Assembly: GCF_000403645.1 (NCBI RefSeq)
Contig: NC_021313.1
Span: 1,178,001 to 1,242,000 of the forward strand
DNA from: Salinarchaeum sp. Harcht-Bsk1
GTDB taxonomy: Archaea; Halobacteriota; Halobacteria; Halobacteriales; Salinarchaeaceae
DNA length: 64,000 bases
Direction: 5' to 3'
Below the pieces are notes generated by a model, which was given only the letters and a program-made list of their open reading frames with translations, did no database searches and was not told the origin of the DNA. Below, in pieces: positions 52,915 through 55,424 of this stretch (position 1 is the first letter of the stretch; every line of letters starts with the position of its first letter). Made by a program: the position numbers and the translations under genes.

Positions 52915-52986
52915 ATGACGTACGAGGATAGAGGAAGTCGCCGCGAGGCGGCTGGACGCGAAATTCGCCGGCACTCAGCCAACTGA
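52915..52986 (+). CDS. Candidate leader ORF upstream of cimA (23 residues)
   Basis: ATG at 52915 opens a 23-codon ORF beginning MTYEDRGSRREAAGREIRRH and ending with SAN, stop TGA 52984-52986. It ends seven bases before the GTG of the following synthase and is in another frame. It contains six Arg codons and no Leu or Ile codon cluster beyond one ATT, so classical attenuation by leucine is not obvious. A hairpin GCCGC-GAG-GCGGC lies inside (about 52941-52953). It may couple translation of the synthase gene. The product could itself be without function. Confidence 0.45.
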   Translation: MTYEDRGSRREAAGREIRRHSAN

Positions 52987-52993
52987 TTCTCCC

Positions 52994-54517
52994 GTGGGAT
53001 TCTCCGATACGCCGATCGACGACCAGACCGAGGTATCGCTGCTGGACACGACGCTGCGCGACGGCGAGCAGGCGCCGGGCGTCTCCCTGACCCCCGAGGA
53101 AAAGGCCGAGATCGCGCAGGCGCTCGACCGGGCCCAGGTCGACGTCATCGAGGCCGGATCGGCCTGCACCGGCGAGGGCGAGCGACGGACGATCCGCAGA
53201 GTCGCGGACCTCGACCTCGACGCCACGGTCACGAGCTTCTCTCGGGGGATCAAGCGCGACGTCGAACTGGCGCTCGACTGCGGCGTCGACGGGATCAACC
53301 TGGTCGTCCCCGCCAGCGACCGCCACGTCGAGACGAAGGTCGACTCGACGCGGGAGGACGTCATCGCGTCGACGGAGGAACTCGTCGAGTTCGCCGTCGA
53401 CCAGGGGCTCTGGGTCGAGGTCATCGGCGAGGACGGCTCGCGAGCGGACCTGGAATTCCTCGAGGAGCTGATGGCCACCGCACTCGACGCCGGCGCCGAT
53501 CGGGTCTGCTACGCGGACACGGTCGGCCACGCCGGCCCCGAGCGGGCCTACGAGGTAGTGTCCGCGCTGTCCGACCTGGGCCCCACGAGTGCGCACACGC
53601 ACGACGACCTGGGACTGGGCGTCACGAACGCCCTCGCCGCGATCGACGCCGGTGCCGACATGGTACACGCCACGGTCAACGGCGTCGGCGAGCGGGCAGG
53701 CAATGCTGCTCTCGAGGAGATCGTCATCGCGCTCGAGCACGTCTACGGCATCGAGACCGTCGAAACCGAACAGCTCTACGAACTCGGCCAGACCGTCGCG
53801 AACGCGACCGGCATCGAACTGCCGCCGAACAAGGCCGTTCTCGGCGAGAACGCCTTCACCCACGAGTCCGGCATCCACACCGACGGCACGCTCAAGGACG
53901 ACGCGATGTACGAGCCCTACGCGCCCGAGACCGTGGGTCGCGAGCGCCGGATCGTCGCCGGCAAACACACCGGCCGCGCTGGAGCGAAGGCGGCACTGGA
54001 AGAGCACGGGATCGACGTCGACGGCGAGGAACTGGACAAGATCGTCGAGCGCGTCAAGGCGATCGGTGATCGTGGGAAGCGCGTCACCGACGCCGACCTC
54101 ATGACGATCGCCGAGGAGGTCACCGACGGCGAGCGCGAGCGCCTCGTCGAACTGGTGGACATGACTGCAGCAAGCGGCGGCGGAACGCCCACCGCGAGCG
54201 TCCGGCTCCTCGTCGACGGCGAGGAGCACCAGGCCGCGGCGACCGGGTCGGGGCCCGTCGACGCCGCGATCTCCGCGGTTCGAGCGGTCCTGGGTGAGAA
54301 GACCGCGAGCCTCGATTCCTACGAGGTCGACGCGATCACCGGCGGCCACGACGCCGTCGTGACCGTCGAGGTCGAGATGTCCCGTGGTGATCGGTCCGTG
54401 TCCGTTCGATCGTCGGACGCCGACATCACGACCGCGAGCGTCGAGGCGATGGTCGAGGCGCTCGATCGACTCCTCGCGAGCGACGAGGACACCGAGGCGC
54501 TGCTCGCGGACGACTGA
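52994..54517 (+). CDS. cimA: (R)-citramalate / 2-isopropylmalate synthase
   Basis: A 507-residue acetyl-CoA-dependent acyltransferase of the LeuA/CimA family, condensing acetyl-CoA with pyruvate (isoleucine route) or with 2-oxoisovalerate (leucine). LLDTTLRDGEQAPGVSL (Arg22-Asp23), His201 and His203 in SAHTHDDLGLGV, GVGERAGNAALEE and the GKHTGR motif are present, followed by a C-terminal LeuA-type regulatory domain (about 385-500, with feedback binding of Ile or Leu). By reading I cannot decide between citramalate and isopropylmalate; I use cimA as in many haloarchaeal annotations. The start is GTG at 52994, seven bases after the leader ORF. Confidence 0.88.
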   Translation: MGFSDTPIDDQTEVSLLDTTLRDGEQAPGVSLTPEEKAEIAQALDRAQVDVIEAGSACTGEGERRTIRRVADLDLDATVTSFSRGIKRDVELALDCGVDGINLVVPASDRHVETKVDSTREDVIASTEELVEFAVDQGLWVEVIGEDGSRADLEFLEELMATALDAGADRVCYADTVGHAGPERAYEVVSALSDLGPTSAHTHDDLGLGVTNALAAIDAGADMVHATVNGVGERAGNAALEEIVIALEHVYGIETVETEQLYELGQTVANATGIELPPNKAVLGENAFTHESGIHTDGTLKDDAMYEPYAPETVGRERRIVAGKHTGRAGAKAALEEHGIDVDGEELDKIVERVKAIGDRGKRVTDADLMTIAEEVTDGERERLVELVDMTAASGGGTPTASVRLLVDGEEHQAAATGSGPVDAAISAVRAVLGEKTASLDSYEVDAITGGHDAVVTVEVEMSRGDRSVSVRSSDADITTASVEAMVEALDRLLASDEDTEALLADD

Positions 54518-55107: not shown

Positions 55108-55170
55108 CGATCGGTGGTAGGGTTCGGGTGGTGAAAAGGGCGGTTCCCGAAGACGCCTCTCAGACACGTG

Positions 55171-55344
55171 CCGCTCGCTACGCTCGCGGTCAGAACGTCG
55201 GAGAAGCGCCGAGGGGGAGATTTGAACAACGGCCGGACGTGCTCGCTTCGCTGCGCGCGTCCGGTCTCGTTCAAATCACCGACGGCGTTCCTGCTGACGC
55301 AGACTCCTCGCTACGCTCGTCGTCAGATACCAGCAGGAACGCCG
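55171..55344. repeat. Three successive hairpins in the tRNA-Ser 3' trailer
   Basis: Hairpin 1 is CCGCTCGCTACGCTCGCGG (55171-55189). Hairpin 2 has outer arms GATTTGAAC (55219-55227) and GTTCAAATC (55269-55277) and inner arms CCGGACG and CGTCCGG (55233-55239, 55258-55264). Hairpin 3 has perfect 14-base arms CGGCGTTCCTGCTG (55283-55296) and CAGCAGGAACGCCG (55331-55344), the latter reaching into the tRNA 3' end. All loops contain CTCGCT-[A/T]-CGCT-like sequence. Confidence 0.7.
55208..55227 (-). repeat. Copy of the tRNA-Ser 3' end
   Basis: GCCGAGGGGGAGATTTGAAC (plus strand) is identical to the first 20 bases of the tRNA gene on the plus strand at 55341-55360, i.e. the T-arm half and acceptor 3' strand of tRNA-Ser. 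The direct repeat is 133 bases apart. It is not a full tRNA. Confidence 0.8.
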
Positions 55345-55424
55345 AGGGGGAGATTTGAACTCCCGAGTCCTTGCGGACAGTTGCTCTCGAGGCAACCGCC
55401 TTGGCCGGGCTAGGCTACCTCGGC
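55341..55424 (-). tRNA. tRNA-Ser(CGA)
   Basis: On the minus strand the gene runs from 55424 to 55341 (84 bases). Acceptor strands GCCGAGG and CCTCGGC pair perfectly. The D-arm lies at about residues 10-26, the anticodon stem GTTGC/GCAAC encloses the loop CTCGAGA with anticodon CGA (serine, UCG codons), the long variable arm TGTCC-GCAA-GGACT is type II as in tRNA-Ser, and the T-arm GGGAG-TTCAAAT-CTCCC is normal. CCA is not encoded. There is no intron. The 3' end is followed by several hairpins and a copied fragment. Confidence 0.95.

Follow-up and report, generated by a model that had tools for sequence, protein, structure and literature searches.

Nested palindromes and a copied 3' end behind a haloarchaeal tRNA-Ser gene: a member of a haloarchaea-wide family of possible tRNA-anchored cassettes

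Why should the last bases of a tRNA gene stand a second time beyond that gene, with palindromes nested between and beside the two copies? The question is raised by tRNA-Ser(CGA) of Salinarchaeum sp. Harcht-Bsk1, found in a stretch of 64,000 nucleotides (NC_021313.1, positions 1,178,001 to 1,242,000; hereafter the window) of a 3.26-Mb single-contig genome. Duplications of tRNA ends are classic att marks, according to a review on archaeal integrases (PMC8371274), and a preliminary description of the locus had considered the scar of a lost integrative element, a miniature element or a stepwise formation of palindromes. Five explanations, which are not fully exclusive, are weighed below. With about as much confidence as doubt, we regard the locus as belonging to a family of palindromic cassettes, anchored at tRNAs throughout the haloarchaea, that are gained and lost together with a duplicated tRNA tail.

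The tRNA-Ser(CGA) gene, the sole tRNA of the window, occupies 55340-55424 on the minus strand, as called by ARAGORN, by Rfam (RF00005) and from the sequence itself. Along this strand, on which all the features of the array lie, the order is T1, H1, T', a core hairpin, T2 and then a second H1-like hairpin. T1 (55340-55360) designates the last 21 nt of the gene. The hairpin H1 (55283-55344), recognized by its inverted repeat and its RNA fold, has an outer stem of 14 perfect base pairs (55331-55344 with 55283-55296) beginning within the tRNA acceptor strand, 5 of the 14 bases of the arm being the last nucleotides of the tRNA itself, and encloses an inner loop (55297-55330). T' (55269-55287), identified from inverted repeats and sequence, is an inverted copy of the tRNA T-arm that reads GATTTGAAC on the minus strand and also holds an acceptor-strand complement in degenerate form; its inverted T-arm sequence, GTTCAAATC at 55269-55277, pairs with both direct copies, T1 and T2. 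The core hairpin GAGACCGGACGCGCGCAGCGAAGCGAGCACGTCCGGCCGTT (55228-55268), delineated by its palindrome, its core family, its loop asymmetry and a consensus fold, carries a 4 x 5 internal loop adjoining the T-arm stem. It is followed by T2 (55207-55227), a perfect direct repeat of the 21 nt of the tRNA-Ser 3' end from G53 to N73. Finally, the hairpin beyond T2 (55158-55206, minus strand) is similar to H1 and probably represents the stub of another unit: a direct-repeat search aligned 55174-55227 with 55307-55360 at 81% over 54 nt, and in the congener stretch matching this hairpin T' and core come next (L012/L044). The perfect 20-base copy at a spacing of 133 nt (21 bases when G53 is counted), the perfect 14-base arms, the arms bearing the inverse T-loop sequence and the third hairpin beside T2 had all been seen in the preliminary description, and each was recovered at these positions.

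The last 20 nt of the tRNA occur only twice in the window, as T1 and T2, and the best match to the tRNA end in shuffled versions of the 700 nt downstream (n = 300) was 15/20, with a mean of 12. The tRNA and its array fold as RNA with z = -4.4, and the array folds as DNA with z = -3.1. Within the window, Rfam gave no match above the gathering score for the array, its matches being limited to the tRNA and to a leuA-Halobacteria cis-regulatory RNA; the latter (RF03001, 73.5 bits, 52917-52969, plus strand) lies just 5' of a LeuA-type ORF (52994-54517). This RNA, together with the named genomes in which the core hairpin of the window recurs, marks the genome as haloarchaeal.

A search of the genome for further tRNA ends with similar hairpins, as advised in the preliminary description, revealed what that description had missed, namely that the arrangement recurs genome-wide. 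The tRNA loci extracted from this genome, from a congener (G001) and from four outgroup euryarchaea were surveyed for copies of at least 16 of the last 20 nt of each tRNA within 260 nt downstream. Such a direct copy of the own 3' end follows 19 of the 42 tRNAs of this genome, many copies being 20/20, and no upstream copy was found at any of the 42. The congener similarly has 19/42, and the four outgroup genomes have none at 17 tRNAs. The pattern GATTTGAAC-N40..70-GTTCAAATC, applied to the whole genome, yielded six palindromes (none with the reversed control), five of which adjoin a tRNA (Ser, Leu, Leu, Ser, Met). The layout is recurrent: T1, an H1 growing out of the T1 acceptor strand, T', a core hairpin and T2, in units of about 80-150 bp whose tail copies the final ~21 nt of the host tRNA, from G53 to N73, and ends mostly at, or within one base of, the tRNA 3' end. 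Among the T copies, 34 were like those of their own tRNA and none was clearly foreign, by which cassettes bringing their tail from another tRNA were rejected. Units stand behind tRNAs for many amino acids and in many genera, and they also form tandem arrays (T1-unit-T2-unit-T3) with up to five copies, including identical tandem units behind tRNA-Phe and tRNA-Lys.

The family extends through the order. The palindrome pattern was present in 38 of the 53 genomes from this order and in one of ~240 others of the phylum, the reversed control again giving none, and the lone palindrome outside the order (G222) has no tRNA nearby. In this non-haloarchaeal locus (L311), 3 kb long and free of tRNA genes, a GATTTGAAC/GTTCAAATC palindrome encloses 17 nt that match the complement of a tRNA-Ser 3' end. 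Over 84,980 species genomes, a core-only pattern devoid of tRNA sequence matched 108 stretches, nearly all from named haloarchaea. Of 110 core matches, 99 are located downstream of a tRNA at a distance of 49-338 nt, all 99 on the tRNA strand; the remaining ones correspond to contig ends or to a repeated hairpin of an alphaproteobacterial MAG that bears no relation to the family. An inversion of cores by recombination between T' and T2 was rejected, as none of these 99 cores is inverted. A viral or plasmid origin was rejected as well, with no match in a phage collection (50,697 records) and a single, unannotated one, from Natronorubrum, in a plasmid collection (72,556). At tRNA-Ser(CGA) itself, the array exists in 12 of 29 other genomes, with differing cores, and is absent from 17, and it fits neither a single isolated scar nor a processing signal kept fixed by conservation; the conservation across genera that the preliminary description would have taken as a sign of function is thus only partial.

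How units come and go could be followed in the comparison with the congener, which covers one species pair and about ten loci and does not distinguish gain from loss. Among orthologous tRNAs, 10 have a unit in both genomes, 8 and 9 in one genome only, and 12 in neither (Fisher p = 0.53). Unit presence at orthologous tRNAs is independent between the congeners, and the strong form of a processing signal fixed at each tRNA was rejected on this ground. Where the flanks align, the register is exact with the T boundaries. For tRNA-Glu(ctc) and tRNA-Leu(taa), the sequence after T2 in our genome equals the sequence directly after T1 in the congener, our genome having the extra unit; conversely, what follows T1 in our genome at tRNA-Cys, Ile, Met and Ser(gga) equals what follows T2 in the congener, which has the extra unit. 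The junction offset is 0 in these six cases, except for 1 at tRNA-Met, and at all six junctions the additional unit lies next to the tRNA, in both directions. The miniature element that the preliminary description envisaged, with a duplicated tRNA end as its mark, agrees with the finding that units are present or absent exactly with one tRNA-end copy. In 32 arrays the distal copies show more decay than the proximal ones, and in 16 they show less (p = 0.03). H1 stays with its tRNA and cores turn over between the congeners: orthology holds for the first 30 nt of the unit (0.50 vs 0.21, p = 0.0002, nine pairs) and is absent from its last 48 nt (0.28 vs 0.25, p = 0.57, nine pairs), and the nearest relative of a core lay at the orthologous tRNA in none of 43 cases.

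Genuine integrative elements also use these sites. Several unit-free tRNAs have a tyrosine-integrase gene directly behind them (L083, L228, L245), the protein of L083 belonging to Pfam Phage_integrase. At tRNA-Glu(ttc), a 9.3-kb integrative element (G000:C1:2849877-2859372) separates the tRNA (2849877) from a long tRNA copy that ends at 2859372; its right end carries most of the tRNA gene, and the unit array resumes behind it. Classical integration thus uses the same site, is distinguishable and pushes the array outward.

These elements bear directly on the possibility that a unit is the remainder, flanked by attL and attR, of an integrase-borne element that has lost most of its length, as the preliminary description had suggested for our locus. 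The direct repeat of a tRNA 3' end is there, T1 and T2 being identical over 21 nt, and one complete unit without a detected tRNA nearby (L237 4790-4930, G000:C1:3102800-3102930) stands directly behind a tyrosine-integrase gene. However, no integrase element or remnant lies between T1 and T2 of the window, where the 133-nt spacing holds no gene; a unit of ~80-150 bp with uniform length and anatomy is found behind many kinds of tRNA, each time with the end of that tRNA; the genuine tRNA-Glu(ttc) element has a much longer tRNA copy, sits between tRNA and array and shifts an array by 9.3 kb instead of giving rise to one; and phages and plasmids together provided the one match mentioned above. The ordinary att scar was therefore rejected as the main reading, and we judge it very improbable. 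About as improbable is an origin by tandem duplication and unequal crossing-over at the T copies only, without any insertion. The near-identical tandem units of L037 and L038 would agree with it, and repeat-mediated deletion is described in haloarchaea (PMC3119063); such a process nevertheless cannot make the first unit at an empty tRNA and leaves the non-orthologous cores unaccounted for. Somewhat more room, although it too seems unlikely, may be given to fold-back replication, in which a polymerase pausing at tRNA ends would switch template on the same strand and make T' and then T2 in one event, hairpins accumulating between them. This would account at once for inverted and direct copies that both match the host tRNA, as well as for the perfect palindrome arms, and the stepwise palindrome formation evoked in the preliminary description agrees with it and stays a live rival for the origin of T' and T2; shared cores (a 26-nt motif) behind many tRNAs of many genera, and their single fixed orientation, are left unexplained.

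A more serious contender, to which we would still give clearly less than even chances, is a functional 3'-trailer RNA, that is, a structured trailer acting in tRNA maturation, in termination or as a small RNA, with T', T1 and T2 offering alternative folds in which the acceptor of T2 takes the place of that of T1. The position of T-runs suggests that units may be transcribed as 3' trailers of the tRNA. A terminator-like TTTT lies within 10 nt after the tRNA at 7 of 46 unit-free loci; at unit loci, it lies within 10 nt after T1 in 1/38 and after the last T copy in 8/38, and the first units contain only one TTTT in 4,605 nt. With the T-run behind the last copy, units would lie between the tRNA and its terminator and be read as part of the trailer, and the tRNA strand carries the core in all 99 tRNA-linked matches. 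Trailers fold with a mean z of -3.8 in 37 loci with a unit, against -1.1 in 43 without one. In 29 of the 37, it is T2 instead of T1 that partners the tRNA 5' acceptor in the minimum-energy fold. In the window, the T1 acceptor joins H1 in this fold, which is 5.3 kcal/mol better than the fold with the normal tRNA forced. Furthermore, 93 of 104 core hairpins with a perfect five-base stem have an internal loop with one extra base on the 3' side, despite diverse stem sequences. GU exceeds AC by 9:1 in core stems and 30:13 in H1 stems (together about p = 0.001, binomial), and RNAalifold indicated compensatory changes at 10 of 14 consensus pairs. The whole-arm ratio of 180:211 is misleading because a conserved C.A mismatch of the core dominates its AC side. 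The GU excess and the compensatory changes favour some selection on the folded sense strand, as RNA or single-stranded DNA, and not on the T'-T2 pairing, whose arms have no GU bias (61:65), an absence that goes against the trailer RNA and is in line with cassettes. Other facts fit the trailer RNA poorly: even congeners differ in which tRNAs carry a unit, half of the tRNAs have no unit, and the acceptor copy of T2 often lacks a partner in the unit yet is exact. The pairing of T2 with the 5' acceptor is also a trivial outcome of the identity of T1 and T2. The closest parallel on its side is rttR of Escherichia coli, an annotated small RNA with the same layout.

If the units are cassettes, as we are inclined to believe, each would insert at a tRNA 3' end and duplicate the tail as a target-site duplication, T1 keeping the tRNA intact. 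Older units would be pushed outward and then decay, and recombination between T copies, for which the repeat-mediated deletion known in haloarchaea (PMC3119063) offers a possible route, would remove units. The unit might be transcribed as a 3' trailer, in the fold of which the acceptor part of T2 could replace that of T1. Several facts weigh against the cassettes. A plain insertion leaves the match of T' to the host tRNA unexplained, presence and absence in two species cannot separate gain from loss, and a purely selfish insert need not exhibit the selection on folding that the GU excess and compensatory changes suggest. Moreover, no very recent copy shared between tRNAs was seen in the two congeners, the best core similarity between different tRNAs being 0.76. 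More speculative, and in our opinion rather doubtful, is a polarised, tRNA-templated cassette system, in which a putative dedicated integrase or transposase would copy the last 21 nt of the tRNA that is hit, arrays would grow next to the tRNA, in formal likeness to CRISPR or integron arrays, and a similar process would have made the tyrTV repeats of E. coli.

The E. coli tyrTV/rttR (rtT) operon is the closest known case, and the comparison concerns layout alone, which is the same T1-T'-T2. There, 178-nt tandem repeats behind tRNA-Tyr each end in 19/20 of the tRNA 3' end and contain a 22-nt inverted copy of the T-arm (86%) plus hairpins, and the minimum-energy RNA fold pairs the 5' acceptor with T2; the repeat is annotated as the small RNA RttR. 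As far as examined, it is restricted to one operon, whereas in haloarchaea tRNA-specific units, shorter at about 100-130 bp against 178, are found at nearly half of the tRNAs and across a whole order. The layout is thus common to two domains, by convergence on one mechanism or otherwise. In the mostly open-access literature searched, no description of the haloarchaeal tRNA-flanking arrays was found, and the family seems undescribed to that extent.

Other systems share single traits with the units. Like REP sequences, the units are short intergenic palindromes with conserved imperfections; contrary to REPs and REPINs, they are not scattered (99/110 core matches being directly downstream of tRNAs) and their arms include tRNA sequence. 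CRISPR arrays and casposons insert beside a fixed leader with duplication of the target, the newest unit being nearest to the leader, and some casposons use tRNA 3' ends. The haloarchaeal units may resemble them by tRNA-proximal presence or absence in six base-exact cases, in which gain is not told from loss, and by the decay gradient (p = 0.03), but they are related to each other, unlike the foreign spacers of CRISPR, and their copy of 21 nt differs from the casposon target copy of about 14-15 nt. The att sites of tyrosine-integrase elements (SNJ2, SSV and pNOB8 types) likewise comprise repeats of tRNA 3' ends with the right boundary at the last tRNA base, as presented in the integrase review (PMC8371274), whose passages on tRNA att sites hold nothing like these arrays; the haloarchaeal unit differs by having neither gene nor integrase, and by being one small unit type behind many tRNAs. 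The MITEs, PATEs and small mobile repeats of Haloquadratum (PMC3119063) are also short, non-coding, palindrome-bearing and strain-variable, whereas our units are confined to tRNA 3' ends, in one orientation, with a ~21-nt target-specific tail copy. Of the MITE traits, a target-like duplication is present, and terminal inverted repeats were not evident by eye in the units.

The 3' ends of tRNA genes are a classic doorway for mobile DNA, and tiny gene-less units, which turn over within a genus, follow nearly half of the tRNA genes surveyed and extend through a whole order, seem here to use the same door. Should this hold true, the tyrT repeats of E. coli, an oddity for decades, would become one case of a general process, the arrays would provide a natural system in which the duplication of target sites at tRNA genes can be studied, and a short duplicated tRNA end in an archaeon would by itself be no evidence of a lost provirus.

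Some variations on the unit were also observed. A second hairpin type, 'GACCTTCGC...GCTC[AG]GTCCC' with a 14-nt copy of the acceptor only, occurs inside or after T2 downstream of tRNA-Arg, tRNA-Lys and initiator tRNA-Met (L057, L061, L062, L073, L080, L071); in both tRNA-Lys genes, T2 is split at the identical base by a nearly equal insert of this type. The core loop of a tRNA-Ser unit (L016, G058:C1:2418973) contains an extra palindromic insert of ~100 bp, and a decayed unit of tRNA-Arg(tcg) lies ~1.7 kb off, with a 287-codon ORF in between (L236 1600-3430). Finally, the motif GCGACGAACGnACGTGAGGAGC is common to many H1 stems and, as judged by eye, might form a kink-turn-like internal loop in RNA.
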